The notes below the pieces were generated by a model. It was not told the DNA's origin. It saw only the letters and a list, made by a program, of their open reading frames with translations, and ran no database searches. Position numbers and translations under genes: made by a program. From Nocardia higoensis NBRC 100133 (GTDB taxonomy: Bacteria; Actinomycetota; Actinomycetes; Mycobacteriales; Mycobacteriaceae), in assembly GCF_000308595.1 (NCBI RefSeq), contig NZ_BAGA01000079.1, positions 62,001 to 126,000 of the forward strand: a stretch of 64,000 bases of DNA, in the 5' to 3' direction. This document shows, piece by piece, positions 58,301 to 63,864 of this stretch (positions are counted from its first letter, which is position 1; the number at the start of each line of letters is the position of its first letter).

Positions 58301-58579
58301 CTACAGCAGCGGCGTCATCGCGACGATTCCGATCGCGACGAGCACGGCCAGGTAGGCCAGCACCAGCCGGGTGTCACGCAGCAGGCACCTGCTGCGCAGC
58401 AGTCCGTTGCGCCTGGCCCGCCAATAGGCGAGGAAACCGAGTGCGGCGAAACCGGTGAGCGCGATCGGCCCGAGCAGCCAGGTGAGCAGTGCGACGGTGG
58501 CGTAGACACACAGGTTCAGCGGGTCGTGGTGCGGTTGCCGGGCGATCGCTTCTTCGTAGTAGACGCCGGTGTCGCTCAT
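58301..58579 (-). CDS. Small membrane protein of the radical SAM/Lgt-like operon
   Basis: A 92-aa protein with two to three hydrophobic helices (VYATVALLTWLLGPIALTGF, ALGFLAYWRA, VLAYLAVLVAIGIVAM). No known motif. The ATG overlaps the stop of the radical SAM gene by 4 bases (58576-58579). As last gene of a four-gene coupled operon with a radical SAM enzyme, it could anchor that enzyme to the membrane; this is inference. Confidence 0.7.
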   Translation of the reverse strand: MSDTGVYYEEAIARQPHHDPLNLCVYATVALLTWLLGPIALTGFAALGFLAYWRARRNGLLRSRCLLRDTRLVLAYLAVLVAIGIVAMTPLL

Positions 58580-60141
58580 CGCACCTCCACCGGTAGCAGC
58601 GCGCGTCCGGCGGGGGCGGCGGCGGAGAGTCGCTGCCGGGACAGGGCGGGCCAGGCCTGCACAGCGCAGAAGGGGGCGCATTGGTCGGCGGTGCCTGCGC
58701 GGGTGCCGACGTGCACGCAGCATTGGGTGAGGCGTTCTTCGATCATGGTGGAGATGTCCATGAACGGTTTGACGGTGATGCGTACGACGCGTTCGCCGAG
58801 CAGTGCGCGCAGCTTGGCTTTTCGGCCGGGCAGCGCCGAGGACGCCAGGGTGAGCAGGGTGGACATCCCCAGGTCGCAGGTCCGGCAGATGTTCTGCCAG
58901 ACCGTGCCCATATCGGGGTGTGAGAGCGAGGACTGTTCGGAGAGCAGGCCGTGCAGTGATTCGCGCACGGCCAGGCGCAGTTCGGCGGGGATCTCGCTGT
59001 CGGCGATGCGGTTGGCGACCAGGCCGAGTCGTGCGGCGAGGGTGTCGTGGCCGATGAGCGCGACCAGGGAGCGCCAGGTTCCGGCGTCGTCGCGCAGCAG
59101 GTAGCCGACCGAGCAGCAGTGCGGGTGGGAGCAGGGCAGGGCGGTGAGGTCCTGCCAGGTGACCAGGCCGCCGGTCTGCGGGCCGAGGCGGGCCAGGACG
59201 CCGGTGTGGGTGAGACGGTCGGCGGGGTCGATGGGGCCGGATCGGCCGGAGCCGAATTGGGGCTGGATGGAGACGCCGCCGACGAACGGGGTGTCCAGGG
59301 CGGTCCGCACGACGGCGCCGATCTCGTCGTCGTTGACGCCGAGGGCCGCGGTCATCACCAGGGTGGTGAAGATGGCGTGGGCGGAGAGGCGTTGCAGCGC
59401 CGAATCTTTGAGTGCGCGCAGGTCGCCGCCGCGGTGATGGCGGGAGGCGGCGGCGCTGATGCCGTCGAACTGCAGGTAGATCTCGACGCGTTCGCGGTGT
59501 TCGGCCAGCAGCGCGAGCAGGCTGTCGTCGCGGGCGATGCGGATGCCGTTGGTGTTGAGCAGGATCCGGGTGATGGGTCGGGCGGTGAGTTCGGTGAGCA
59601 GTTCGGGCAGTTGCGGGTGCAGGGTGGGTTCGCCGCCGCTGAGCATGAGCACGTCGAGCCTGCCGTGTTCGCGGGCCAGGCGCTGGTCGACATTGGCGAG
59701 AACGTCGGCGACGGCGACGACGCCGCCGAGATCGGGGGCGGAGTCGGCGAAGCAGGTGGGGCAGCGCAGGTTGCAGGTATCGACGATGTCCTCGAGCAGG
59801 ATGCAGGTGTGTTGGGTCTGCATCTCCGGCAGACCGCGCAGGTAGGCCGAGGGCACCGGGTCGAAGTTGCCGGGCGTGTCGGGCAGGTGCGCTTTGGTGG
59901 GCGCGGTCCAGCGTTCGAGGTAGCTGAGGATTTCGGGGTTCTCGTCGTAGAGGGTGCGGATCATGCCGTGGCGGGGGCAACCGCGTTCCAGATACACGCG
60001 GCCGTCGCGTTCGGCGAGCCATCCGGACAGGCGCGCGACGTCGGCCAGCGGGCGGTCGGGGTCCTCGTGGTGGCATCGAGGGCAGAACGCGGTGACGTAA
60101 CGCAGGATGCGGTCATCTCGCAGGGGCATCCCGGCGGTCAT
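58576..60141 (-). CDS. Radical SAM enzyme of the MJ0619/tetraether-synthase-like family
   Basis: A 521-aa enzyme. N-terminal CPRC (Cys20, Cys23) and CPRH (Cys55) look like a rubredoxin-type zinc/iron site. The radical SAM cluster is Cys123, Cys127, Cys130 (CNLRCPTC), followed by SGGEP at 168-172. C-terminal cysteines (PCSHPHCC, ICRTCDL, TQCCVH, CAPFCAVQ) resemble the extra Fe-S sites of archaeal Tes (MJ0619), which links lipid tails by C-C bond formation. The layout is the same, though the function in a bacterium may differ. It sits between two small membrane genes and downstream of an Lgt-like gene, so lipid or lipoprotein work is likely. Start ATG 60141. Confidence 0.8.
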   Translation of the reverse strand: MTAGMPLRDDRILRYVTAFCPRCHHEDPDRPLADVARLSGWLAERDGRVYLERGCPRHGMIRTLYDENPEILSYLERWTAPTKAHLPDTPGNFDPVPSAYLRGLPEMQTQHTCILLEDIVDTCNLRCPTCFADSAPDLGGVVAVADVLANVDQRLAREHGRLDVLMLSGGEPTLHPQLPELLTELTARPITRILLNTNGIRIARDDSLLALLAEHRERVEIYLQFDGISAAASRHHRGGDLRALKDSALQRLSAHAIFTTLVMTAALGVNDDEIGAVVRTALDTPFVGGVSIQPQFGSGRSGPIDPADRLTHTGVLARLGPQTGGLVTWQDLTALPCSHPHCCSVGYLLRDDAGTWRSLVALIGHDTLAARLGLVANRIADSEIPAELRLAVRESLHGLLSEQSSLSHPDMGTVWQNICRTCDLGMSTLLTLASSALPGRKAKLRALLGERVVRITVKPFMDISTMIEERLTQCCVHVGTRAGTADQCAPFCAVQAWPALSRQRLSAAAPAGRALLPVEVR

Positions 60142-60590
60142 GGCTGTGCTCCGTTCTCGGCGAGCGTGGGCGATGGAGGTGCACTGTAGAGGTTGGGGTT
60201 GACGCCGGTGCAGAAGCCCGCCGTGCAGATGGTGACCAGCGCCCATCCGATCATCAATCCCATGCCGAGACCTTTGGCGACGGGTTTGCGCACCAGGATG
60301 AGCAGTGTGCCGCCGCCGAACGCGGCCAGCGCGCCGAACGCGGCGGCCAGACCCAGGATCACCCGGTAGGAGTTGCCGCCGTTGGCGACGCCGACGAACA
60401 CGATGAACCCGAAGACGGCGTTGACGACGATGAACAGCGCTGCCCCGGCGACCGCGAATCCCGCGACGACGCCACCCTGTTTCGGCGCCGCAGGCGGTTC
60501 CCCGTAGGGCTGATACGGCTGATCGCGATACGGCGCCGGCTGCTCGGGCGGACCCTGGCCGGGGTCGGGTGGGGGCGGTGGATTGTTCAT
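60138..60590 (-). CDS. Proline-rich small membrane protein (DUF4190-like)
   Basis: A 150-aa protein. The first 45 residues are Pro/Tyr/Gln-rich (NNPPPPPDPGQGPP), then three hydrophobic helices (VAGFAVAGAALFIVVNAVFG, VILGLAAAFGALAAFGG, GLMIGWALVTICTAGF). It fits the general pattern of actinobacterial proteins with a disordered Pro-rich cytoplasmic tail and a small membrane domain. ATG 60590 overlaps the Lgt-like stop; its own stop overlaps the radical SAM start (60138-60141). Confidence 0.72.
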   Translation of the reverse strand: MNNPPPPPDPGQGPPEQPAPYRDQPYQPYGEPPAAPKQGGVVAGFAVAGAALFIVVNAVFGFIVFVGVANGGNSYRVILGLAAAFGALAAFGGGTLLILVRKPVAKGLGMGLMIGWALVTICTAGFCTGVNPNLYSAPPSPTLAENGAQP

Positions 60591-61342
60591 GCCGCGACCT
60601 TTCGTCCGAGGATCGTGTCGTAGATGCCGCGCCGGTAACCGATGGACACGCGCACCGCGACCAGCAGCAGCCCGGGGATCAGGAACCATTGCGGGCGAGT
60701 CAGATCCAGCCACACGGTGTCGTTGGCGCGGGTGAATTCGACGAGGAACCGGAAGACGGCGTAGGCGCCGACGTAGAGGGTGAACAGTTCCCCGGGAGCG
60801 GTGATCTTCTCACGCGCCCAGCGCAGCCAGCAGAACGCGGCCAGGTGGAAGGCGATTTCGTAGAGGAAGCTGGGGTGCATGGCCGCGCCGCTCGCGCAGC
60901 CGGGGCATTCGGGGACCGAGCCCGGCGCGTGCACGCCCCAGGGCAGCGCGGTCGGGCGGCCGGGCGCTTCGGTGAGGTGGCACCCGATGCGCCCGACGGC
61001 CATGCCGAGGGCGACGGCGGGGGCGAACAGGTCGCCGGTGCGTTCCCGGTAGCCGATGAGCCGTTTGGCCATGAGCACGCCGAGATAGGCGCCGAGGAGT
61101 CCGCCGAGCACGCTGCGCGCCCCGAACAGCCAGCTCTCATAGGGGTCGAGGGTTTCGGCCAGGCTGGACAGACGCATCCCGATCGCCCCGCCGACCAGCG
61201 CGCCGGTGACCGCGACCAGCGATTCCTCCCCCAGCGCGCCGCGGCGGCGGCATTCCAGGACGAAGACCACGGCGGCGACCGCCACCCCGAGCGCCACGAA
61301 GAATCCGTGGGTGGGGAGCCCGAAGATCAACTGCGGCACCAT
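60587..61342 (-). CDS. Lgt-like (prolipoprotein diacylglyceryl transferase family) protein, divergent
   Basis: A 251-aa membrane protein of the Lgt family with about six to seven helices. Conserved Lgt parts remain: GRIG (Arg118), MHPSFLYEIAFH, and VFRFLVEFTR (Arg198). But the essential HGG of Lgt is replaced (RSVLGGLLG, so His to Leu), and the Asn in the GRLGNFINGE signature is Cys121 (GRIGCHLTEAPG). A CPGC motif (146-149) lies in the outer arm. It is therefore a paralogue, probably not the housekeeping Lgt. First gene of a four-gene ATGA-linked operon with a Tes-like radical SAM enzyme. Confidence 0.82.
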   Translation of the reverse strand: MVPQLIFGLPTHGFFVALGVAVAAVVFVLECRRRGALGEESLVAVTGALVGGAIGMRLSSLAETLDPYESWLFGARSVLGGLLGAYLGVLMAKRLIGYRERTGDLFAPAVALGMAVGRIGCHLTEAPGRPTALPWGVHAPGSVPECPGCASGAAMHPSFLYEIAFHLAAFCWLRWAREKITAPGELFTLYVGAYAVFRFLVEFTRANDTVWLDLTRPQWFLIPGLLLVAVRVSIGYRRGIYDTILGRKVAA

Positions 61343-62439: not shown

Positions 62440-63864
62440 TCAGTTGTAGGACGCGATGACGCCTTGGAGGAGGGCTTCGAGGGTGTCGTAGGTGGGGGTG
62501 TCGACGACGTCGATGAGTTCGGCGGGCACGGGCAGTCGCTGTGCGGCCGCGACGCCGGCGAACGCGGTGGCGTCGCGGGTGCGGAAGCCGTGTTCGGCGG
62601 CCAGACGCTGGAGTTCGGGGTCGTCGGTGAGCAGGCGGCCGAGGCGGTCACCCGCGGCGTCGAGGGGCACCACGGTATGGGTGGACAGGACCGTCGGCGA
62701 GGGATAGGTCAGCACCATGTCGGGGGTGATGCGGCCCGCGGCTTTCGCTTCGGCGAACTGGGCCTCGTAGATGAGGACGAGCGGGGTGGGGCCCATGCCC
62801 GCGGTCAGGTATTCCTCGAAGGTACCGGCGCTGGAGTTCTCCGCGTAGCCCTGGCCGGTGAACAGCCGGGACAGCAGAGGCAGTACTCGCTGCTGGGCTT
62901 CGGCGCCCTGGACCACGGCGTTGTCGTTGGCGACGAACGCGGCGATGGCGAGGAACATGGCCGCGGAGTTGGAGGTGCGGGGGTCGGTGGTGGAGACGAG
63001 GATGTTCTTGCGGACCGGGTAGGTGGTGTTGCCCGCCAGATGAGTCCATTCGGTATTGCGTTGCGCCAGTTGCAGATACCGCGCCATGTCGAAGGTGGGT
63101 GTGGGTCCGGGGCGGACGACGCCCGCGGTGGTGAGCAGTTCCGCGATCGGTGTGAAGGTGGCGATGGCCATGGGTGAGGAGAACGGCGTGTAGCGGGTGC
63201 TGATGCCGTGGCCGCGCAGGATACGTTCGGCAGCGGGAACACTGGAGGGGAAGGCGAAGCTGTAGCCGGTGAGGTCCATGTCGGCGATCTGACGGGAGCC
63301 GGCCGGTTCGATCTCGACGCGCAGGCCGTGGCGGGCCAGTTCCTCGGCCACGCGGGGATCCTCGAACAACGACGCCTTCTCCGAACCGACCACACCGCGC
63401 ACGGTGGTCAGGTCGGTCGCACCGCTCGCGGCCAGGGTGTCGGAGCGTTCGCGGGTAGCGACGGCGACCACAGCGATCACCACGACGGCCACGAGTGCCA
63501 ACGCGCCGGCGGCGGGCAGCAGGCGACGGGATGCGGCCGATCCGGCGCGGACGATGCCCGGCCGCGCCGAAACGGTGTCCATCGCGGGGATTTCCACGGC
63601 GGTGATCTCGGAGGCGCCCGATGCCGGTGTTTCCGTGTGTGCGGTGGCTGTCCCCCGGTCGGCCGGGCCGTCGAGTTCGCGGCGGGCGATGCGTTCGATG
63701 AGTACCGGGACGAATTCGCGCACCGGTGTGCCGTCGAATCGGTTGCGTGCGTCGCCGATCGCCGTGCGCACCCGTTCGGGAGAATGCTGTCCGGCGTAGT
63801 TCTCGATCAGGCTGTCGGTCAGTCGACGCAACGCTTGCTCTTCCCGGATCGTATCGACTGGCAC
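62440..63864 (-). CDS. Membrane-anchored solute-binding-like protein with helical cytoplasmic domain
   Basis: A 474-aa protein, GTG 63864 with GAGGAG upstream. Residues 1-60 form a short helical domain (LTDSLIENYAGQHSPERVRT then ARNRFDGTPVREFVPVLIER), which I recognise as the actinobacterial three-helix-bundle dimerisation domain. A single TM segment (LLPAAGALALVAVVVIAVVAV) follows. The C-terminal 340 residues resemble a type 2 periplasmic substrate-binding fold: VVGSEKASLFEDPRVAEEL, FDMARYLQLAQRNTEW, GYAENSSAGTFEEYLTAG. It lacks a lipobox. A ligand-sensing outer domain linked to a dimerising inner domain is inferred; no transporter is next to it. Confidence 0.72.
   Translation of the reverse strand: MPVDTIREEQALRRLTDSLIENYAGQHSPERVRTAIGDARNRFDGTPVREFVPVLIERIARRELDGPADRGTATAHTETPASGASEITAVEIPAMDTVSARPGIVRAGSAASRRLLPAAGALALVAVVVIAVVAVATRERSDTLAASGATDLTTVRGVVGSEKASLFEDPRVAEELARHGLRVEIEPAGSRQIADMDLTGYSFAFPSSVPAAERILRGHGISTRYTPFSSPMAIATFTPIAELLTTAGVVRPGPTPTFDMARYLQLAQRNTEWTHLAGNTTYPVRKNILVSTTDPRTSNSAAMFLAIAAFVANDNAVVQGAEAQQRVLPLLSRLFTGQGYAENSSAGTFEEYLTAGMGPTPLVLIYEAQFAEAKAAGRITPDMVLTYPSPTVLSTHTVVPLDAAGDRLGRLLTDDPELQRLAAEHGFRTRDATAFAGVAAAQRLPVPAELIDVVDTPTYDTLEALLQGVIASYN

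Follow-up and report, generated by a model that had tools for sequence, protein, structure and literature searches.

Introduction

In Escherichia coli Lgt (structure 5AZB; family PF01790), residues R143 and R239 are essential (PMC4728403), and the same has been reported of Tyr26 and Asn146 (PMC13251419). Natural variation at these positions is on record: Leptospira Lgt also shows N146C, Actinobacteria have Trp replacing H103, and MSMEG_5408, a second Lgt homologue of Mycobacterium smegmatis, combines Y26H with N146C and is presumed to be of low activity (PMC13251419, 2026). Tes, or GDGT-MAS (MJ0619; structures 7TOL and 7TOM), is a radical S-adenosylmethionine (SAM) enzyme that holds lipid tails inside a hydrophobic tunnel and couples them through a cluster-bound carbon (PMC9433317). 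Phospholipid has been seen to co-purify with GDGT-MAS. Zeng et al. listed Tes homologues in bacteria and suggested branched tetraether synthesis, and Lloyd et al. pointed out that homologues also exist in bacteria that are not known to produce chains of this kind. The system of PMC11868695 is a bacterial route to unusual tails, likened here by description only. Here we analyzed a four-gene operon of Nocardia higoensis NBRC 100133, located in a window of 64,000 nucleotides (contig NZ_BAGA01000079.1, positions 62,001 to 126,000), which joins an Lgt paralogue to a radical SAM protein of the Tes/TrsS superfamily. The operon is one copy of a mobile cassette, the core of which consists of the Lgt paralogue, the radical SAM enzyme and, at nearly every locus examined, one or more small membrane proteins that end their last helix in a Cys, mostly as G-x-C; sequence comparison shows that these parts recur together. 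We tentatively propose, at a probability of roughly 0.4, that the Lgt paralogue lipidates an outward-facing Cys of the small protein and that the radical SAM enzyme alters the lipid chain.

A description of the cassette was absent from the matches listed in open-access full text, and only a Haemophilus annotation study among the matches listed contained both "radical SAM" and the name of the transferase. The term "radical SAM" was not found in the text of PMC13251419, the paper on MSMEG_5408. Both enzymes come from known superfamilies and the assembly itself appears to be undescribed, in agreement with a first-pass annotation, made from the sequence alone, which knew of no bacterial pathway with this pairing.

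Organization of the operon and linkage of the gene pair

The operon comprises four open reading frames (ORFs) on the minus strand, encoding the Lgt paralogue P0001 (251 residues; 60587..61342), the small membrane protein P0002 (150 residues; 60138..60590), the radical SAM protein P0003 (521 residues; 58576..60141) and the two-helix small membrane protein P0004 (92 residues; 58301..58579). Every neighboring pair is joined by an ATGA overlap, in which the stop of one gene meets the start of the next (60587..60590, 60138..60141 and 58576..58579). All coordinates and overlaps in the first-pass annotation were thereby confirmed. In the 6.98-Mb host genome, P0003 is present in a single copy at E 0.001, and the separate normal lgt on which that annotation depended was found on another contig (222 bits vs. 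106 bits for the paralogue).

The results of the co-occurrence search proposed in the first-pass annotation revealed a conserved unit across two phyla. Outside the window, each of the 12 order-level orthologues has an Lgt paralogue as its neighbor, which none of eight distant radical SAM relatives (about 30% identity) has. In Persicobacter (Bacteroidota), a radical SAM gene of 31% identity is preceded by an Lgt paralogue of 33% identity, and a scan of named genomes from the Persicobacter sequence afforded at least 80 Bacteroidota loci, the counts given here referring to 80. Upstream sequence is available at 77 of these loci, and every one of them has the Lgt paralogue ahead of the radical SAM gene; the remaining three start no more than 310 bases from the beginning of a contig. 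The two genes overlap in 62 of 77 ORFs, lie within 100 bases in five and stand further apart (up to 3.9 kb) in ten, and the Lgt paralogue is split into two ORFs in L067 and its ORF is short in L095.

Linkage was also examined in two genome draws, each searched separately with each protein so that loci were not picked by one gene: 247 genomes from the phylum of a Flavobacterium (draw 1, centre G298 included) and 296 Actinomycetota genomes (draw 2, own genome included). In draw 1, with thresholds of more than 390 bits for the radical SAM subfamily and at least 190 bits for the Lgt paralogue, the former was detected in 21 genomes and the latter in 22; all 21 radical SAM genomes hold both, within about 1.2 kb in 20 of them and on different contigs in G341. 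G324 carries the Lgt paralogue alone, and G373 has a weaker radical SAM match (224 bits) without a partner. In draw 2, all six genomes assigned to the linked type have both genes, adjacent to each other, and radical SAM matches without a partner occur in eight further genomes (131-417 bits) and as a second copy in G798. G672 and G709 were assigned to the linked type by their best match to the window protein and by adjacency, not by the tree. Over both draws as assigned, 27 of 27 genomes carry the Lgt paralogue, 26 of them within about 1.2 kb. At a flat 390-bit cut-off the figures become 5/7 in draw 2 and 26/28 over both draws; G672, interrupted by contig ends, falls below that value, and in Actinomycetota the linked type cannot be told apart by bit score alone. 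With kinship ignored throughout, the Fisher p values were 1.5e-29 (draw 1) and 1.1e-12 (draw 2, as assigned), 1.7e-28 and 5.6e-11 without the two centres, and 6.8e-9 for draw 2 at the flat cut-off. The 80-locus and draw counts are not independent, because some genomes are shared (L056 is G298, L119 is G306). The scores of the Lgt paralogue are bimodal (at least 190 vs. at most 143 bits), and the divergence of the two proteins is correlated, with a Pearson coefficient of 0.92 over 39 loci (0.94 within the actinobacterial type and 0.85 within the Bacteroidota type). A chance neighborhood was rejected on the recurrence of the pair across two phyla.

Characteristics of the Lgt paralogue

As the first-pass annotation had put forward, P0001 is Lgt-like: it passed the curated cut-off of PF01790 (105.9 vs. 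24.9 bits), although it stayed below that of the equivalog model TIGR00544 (67.5 vs. 118.9 bits). The profile match to 5AZB reached E 2e-9, and comparison of the P0001 model with known structures gave 5AZB as the top match (Z 10.7, 221 aligned residues, root-mean-square deviation 4.8; next entry Z 7.4), where a Z below about 13 is possibly unspecific for helical bundles. Arg118 and Arg198 align with the catalytic Arg143 and Arg239 of E. coli Lgt. Cys121 occupies the column of Asn146, so the exchange of the signature Asn noted in the first pass holds; in addition, His12 occupies the column of Tyr26, which had escaped that annotation. The latter placement comes from multiple alignments, as the profile match to 5AZB starts just past that residue.

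These features recur throughout the 98 Lgt-like rows aligned. Arg143, Arg239 and Gly154 are present in 98/98, Glu243 is kept (Asp in 5/98), and the Asn146 column is Cys in 98/98. The Tyr26 column is His in 95 of 98 rows, including all 93 actinobacterial and main Bacteroidota rows; the remaining five have His (two), Tyr (two) and Gln (one). The Arg pair, His12 and Cys121 are all retained together in 93/93 actinobacterial and main Bacteroidota rows. The paralogue shares with Lgt its fold family and Arg143, Arg239, Gly154 and Glu243, and it differs from Lgt in the His for Tyr26, the Cys for Asn146, the low equivalog score and its tie to a radical SAM gene, with an ordinary Lgt encoded elsewhere in the same genome. 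An orphan Lgt paralogue with Gln at the His12 position was seen in L186 (6653-7498), with no radical SAM or small-protein neighbor seen there.

Two of the marks on which the first-pass annotation had relied do not distinguish the paralogue. The His of the HGG motif (His103) is indeed absent from P0001, but its loss is not diagnostic, because the ordinary Lgt of the host also lacks it (GIWGA) and Actinobacteria have Trp at this position (PMC13251419); HGG loss as a hallmark of the paralogue was rejected on these grounds. The exchange of Asn146 for Cys by itself says little, because Cys was also found in 3 of 11 PF01790 rows that do not adjoin this radical SAM gene (13 rows minus the mis-framed L138 and L143). 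PF01790 proteins other than the linked paralogue in L139, L144 and L137 carry Cys in the signatures GRMGCHF, GRMGCHL and GRIGCFMAGCCHG, respectively. At least one further PF01790 protein is present in all ten Bacteroidota genomes checked, and in Chitinophaga dinghuensis (G303) one copy with a Cys signature was the sole other PF01790 protein found. Judging from the latter genome, an Lgt with Cys in place of Asn146 may still be able to do its ordinary work.

The exchange of Tyr26 and Asn146, together with the split gene in Bacteroidota locus L067, could also indicate that the Lgt paralogue is a dead remnant or its neighborhood accidental. Such an origin is very improbable, since it accords poorly with recurrence in two phyla, with flanking genes that differ among the actinobacterial loci, and with the fact, noted above, that the Arg pair, His12 and Cys121 have all been kept.

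Characteristics of the radical SAM protein

P0003 matched PF04055 and PF23545 in Pfam. Among NCBIfam models, TrsS (NF045646), a radical SAM (seleno)protein family, scored highest (192.1 bits vs. a cut-off of 490), followed by Tes (NF045702; 140.4 vs. 450), and both cut-offs were missed. Three Bacteroidota members gave 328-341 bits with TrsS and 285-305 with Tes, and L040 gave 196 and 155, so that the TrsS model outscored Tes in all five linked members tested. The comparison with structures pointed to Tes. The sole PDB sequence match of P0003 at E 0.001 was 7TOL (E 1.8e-32), and the P0003 model, which is weak at residues 79-112 and 367-444, matched 7TOM over its full length (E 6.3e-30, TM score 0.70/0.73, root-mean-square deviation 8.7), whereas peptide-maturase structures matched the core only (E 8.8e-9). 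No SPASM domain appeared among the Pfam matches of P0003 up to E 1, and the NCBIfam maturase models cover only its radical SAM core. The placement of this protein nearer to Tes than to peptide maturases in the first-pass annotation is therefore borne out by structure, while its likeness to Tes is qualified by family scores that favor TrsS and by scores below both cut-offs.

The domain and cysteine plan of Tes, which the first-pass annotation had attributed to P0003, was recovered in part. The rubredoxin-type Fe site (C20, C23, C55 and H58; 59968..60084) has its Cys residues in all 42 non-Tes rows and its His in 41 of them, and the radical SAM cluster motif C123-x3-C127-x2-C130 (59752..59775) is present in 43/43 aligned rows. 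P0003 also has Cys at the four C-terminal Cys columns of Tes, and the actinobacterial type keeps these C-terminal cysteines. On the other side, Cys is absent at the site matching the N-terminal auxiliary [4Fe-4S] cysteines of Tes (C73, C77 and C80; 59827..59856 in the window): they occur in none of 11 actinobacterial-type rows, but in 14/14 Bacteroidota-type rows, 16/17 unlinked rows and Tes. The Bacteroidota type retains one of the four C-terminal Tes cysteines in all rows, has lost three, and conserves further C-terminal cysteines that are specific to this type. Plain membership in Tes or TrsS was rejected on the sub-cut-off scores and the auxiliary-cluster cysteines. As far as the row alignments can tell, the family has a common Tes-like scaffold without one common set of auxiliary clusters. 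Because the Bacteroidota relatives have lost three of the four C-terminal cysteines, Tes-type carbon-carbon coupling is not simply transferable to the family, and coupling via a cluster-bound carbon is not assured here. The tail joining considered in the first pass is not supported in that form, given this loss and the N-terminal cysteines missing from P0003 itself.

P0003 further differs from Tes in carrying Lys458 and Val478 at the columns of Met439 and Tyr459, which were placed by an inferred offset of 20; Lys and Val each occupy these columns in 11/11 actinobacterial-type rows. Both residues are completely conserved in archaeal homologues, and the M439A variant was still active (PMC9433317). 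In the tree of 43 rows, the two linked clades were supported at 100/100 and 96/93. Both lay on the same side of a weakly supported branch (83/52), the actinobacterial clade stood on a long branch (3.38), and the tree computation gave long-branch warnings. A single origin of the linked type is compatible with this tree but not shown by it, because that branch is weak and the actinobacterial branch is long.

The family scores also raise the alternative that P0003 performs TrsS-type chemistry unrelated to lipid tails, the Lgt paralogue serving another step. It accounts for the higher TrsS scores and for the C337 column, which is Cys in P0003 and in 16/17 unlinked rows, as in TrsS, and Ser in Tes. 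However, the unlinked relatives in L027, L029 and L194 occupy other settings, with a methyltransferase neighbor and without an Lgt paralogue, so we regard this alternative as improbable. The gene pairs in question were seen at 8977-11345 in L027 and 7926-10204 in L029, where the methyltransferase gene beside the TrsS/Tes-like gene is annotated, and at 4082-6561 in L194, where it is apparent by reading; CcdA, glutaredoxin and deiodinase-like genes lie nearby in L027.

Small membrane proteins with a conserved cysteine

The assignment of P0002 and P0004 as small membrane proteins in the first pass was upheld, and no Pfam family reached its cut-off with either of them. P0002 has a Pro-rich N-terminus and about three hydrophobic segments (by eye), the last of which ends in G-F-C-T-G. 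In most relatives, too, G-x-C-T-G ends a similar last helix, and G125-F126-C127 (60210..60218), a G-x-C that is kept in relatives and has a Bacteroidota counterpart, is our candidate lipid acceptor. P0004 bears a conserved basic-loop motif, S-x-C-x-L-R/K-D-T-R-L-V, and has counterparts in only part of the actinobacterial loci. In the Mycobacterium plasmid copies L024 (8146-9004) and L025 (7422-8516 and 8120-9004), the Lgt paralogue and the radical SAM gene are separated by two P0002-type genes.

In Bacteroidota, the main family of small proteins comprises about 65 residues with two helices and is represented at 63 of the 80 loci by a gene lying downstream of that for the radical SAM protein, with tandem genes of two or more copies in 13 of the 63. 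A rule that asks for two helices, with a later one ending in G-x-C, held in 72 of 78 Bacteroidota loci with room, and the remaining six encode a similar protein with a Cys near the end of the last helix (by eye). The Cys was present in 75 of 76 main-family ORFs, at a median of 16 residues past the last basic residue. A looser pattern was matched in 19 of 22 actinobacterial and deep-branching loci, where the match in L039 falls at another helix than its G-V-C-T-G and that in L181 is a different-looking one-helix protein; in L038, inspection by eye shows a Cys close to where a helix ends. The loop ahead of the last helix was more basic than both ends in 75/75 (mean net charge +4.7 vs. -1.3 and 0.0), which implied that the Cys should lie outside, a feature that the first-pass annotation did not contain. 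The charge pattern suggests a signal-peptide topology, and in its charge and length the last helix up to the Cys is similar to the signal peptide of a lipoprotein. A classical lipobox has Gly, Ala or Ser before the Cys; the residue found here, mostly Ile or Val, would fit an uncleaved acceptor.

Small adjacent ORFs with a conserved Cys and tandem copies also look like precursors, and the radical SAM enzyme might accordingly modify the small membrane protein itself in the manner of a peptide maturase, with the Lgt paralogue lipidating or holding it. The lack of a SPASM domain among the Pfam matches, a closest structure that is Tes while peptide maturases match the core only, and a conserved Cys predicted on the outer face speak against such a role, and we consider it rather improbable.

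Distribution, mobility and flanking genes

Among 35 other genomes of the genus, four have a P0003 orthologue; across the order, 13 of 298 genomes, that of the host included, have one of at least 68% identity. The cassette is an accessory, patchy trait. Mycobacterium branderi, M. avium and Persicobacter psychrovividus carry plasmid-borne copies, and the record of a Nonomuraea gerenzanensis copy is listed among plasmids, yet it is chromosome-sized. The plasmid searches, one of which covered 25 of 71 records, gave no further cassette outside Persicobacter, the two Mycobacterium and Nonomuraea, and viral contigs gave just partial, weak radical SAM matches at 18 loci. L184, from a genome of the Bacteroidota draw (G403), carries a cassette of the actinobacterial type, which points to horizontal transfer or a mixed assembly.

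The families shared among 20 actinobacterial loci (window included) are the cassette genes and frames antisense to them, plus families of three near relatives; cluster number 6 there consists mostly of frames opposite the Lgt gene, plus a few other ORFs. Core genes in L184, L189, L191-L193 and L196 were located by tblastn. The DUF3558 genes upstream of the cassette in M. branderi were rejected as a part of it, as nothing alike was found among the shared families of the actinobacterial loci. Bacteroidota neighbors that we take to be dusB-, lepA- and lolE-like recur in 35 to 39 of 80 loci, under half. In the window, the gene upstream of the operon (62440-63864, minus strand) encodes an N-terminal three-helix dimerisation domain of the MSMEG_6209 type (63 bits, cut-off 25).

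Discussion

A lipid-related role, as supposed in the first-pass annotation, fits the operon. According to the mechanism we favor, the Lgt paralogue would sit in the membrane, its active site facing outward, and would use a phospholipid as the donor of a diacylglyceryl or similar group for the outer last-helix Cys of the small protein, which would stay uncleaved because the acceptor helix is internal. In the manner of Tes, the radical SAM enzyme would take up a lipid chain on the cytosolic side, whether this chain is free or attached to the small protein, and would abstract hydrogen from it and alter or couple it. This would yield an unusual proteolipid, anchored in the membrane and bearing modified tails. 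In favor of the mechanism stand the linkage and correlated divergence of the two enzymes, the Arg pair kept in the paralogue, the near-invariant Cys behind a helix of signal-peptide topology, the tandem copies of the small protein, and the full-length likeness to Tes, whose tunnel binds lipid tails.

Several observations weigh against this mechanism. Both essential residues Tyr26 and Asn146 are replaced in P0001, and Foldseek alone found no Lgt for its model at E 0.001. The residue preceding the Cys is mostly Ile or Val instead of Gly, Ala or Ser, so that there is no classical lipobox, and no such small protein was seen in L178 and L179, near the split genes of G341 or near the orphan in G324. 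The acceptor Cys is predicted on the outer face, and the radical SAM protein is expected to be cytosolic. Moreover, the auxiliary-cluster cysteines that were lost differ between the two linked subclades, and two radical SAM proteins without a partner, G630 (417 bits) and G809 (396 bits), reach the score range of the linked type, although the tree puts both among unlinked rows.

The main rival is a pathway to a free membrane lipid, in which the Lgt paralogue would pass a glyceryl-lipid group from one lipid to another, the radical SAM enzyme would couple or modify the tails, and the small proteins would serve as scaffold. Both enzymes fall in lipid-handling superfamilies, and the absence of a classical lipobox at the conserved Cys and of the small protein in L178 and L179 would be expected of such a pathway. 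On the other side, a structural subunit poorly explains the near-invariant last-helix Cys or the tandem copies, and Lgt is a protein lipidation fold; we hold this pathway to be possible but doubtful. Within the lipidated-Cys mechanism, a more far-reaching version would be a new lipidation pathway, in which the Lgt paralogue lipidates an uncleaved internal-helix Cys and the Tes-like enzyme couples the attached tail to another chain, yielding a membrane-spanning or cross-linked proteolipid in ordinary bacteria. We think this version unlikely.

The cassette links a protein-lipidation fold with a radical SAM family that joins inert alkyl carbons, a partnership unreported among the matches listed. 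Two distant bacterial groups share this small movable gene set, and its tiny membrane proteins may be the target. The cassette is present in cultured Bacteroidota, Flavobacterium among them, many of which are tractable aerobes. What divergent copies of Lgt and Tes-like proteins do in bacteria, a question left open in PMC13251419, PMC9433317 and PMC8941075, can therefore be addressed in such strains by deleting the genes with ordinary methods and analyzing the lipids by mass spectrometry.

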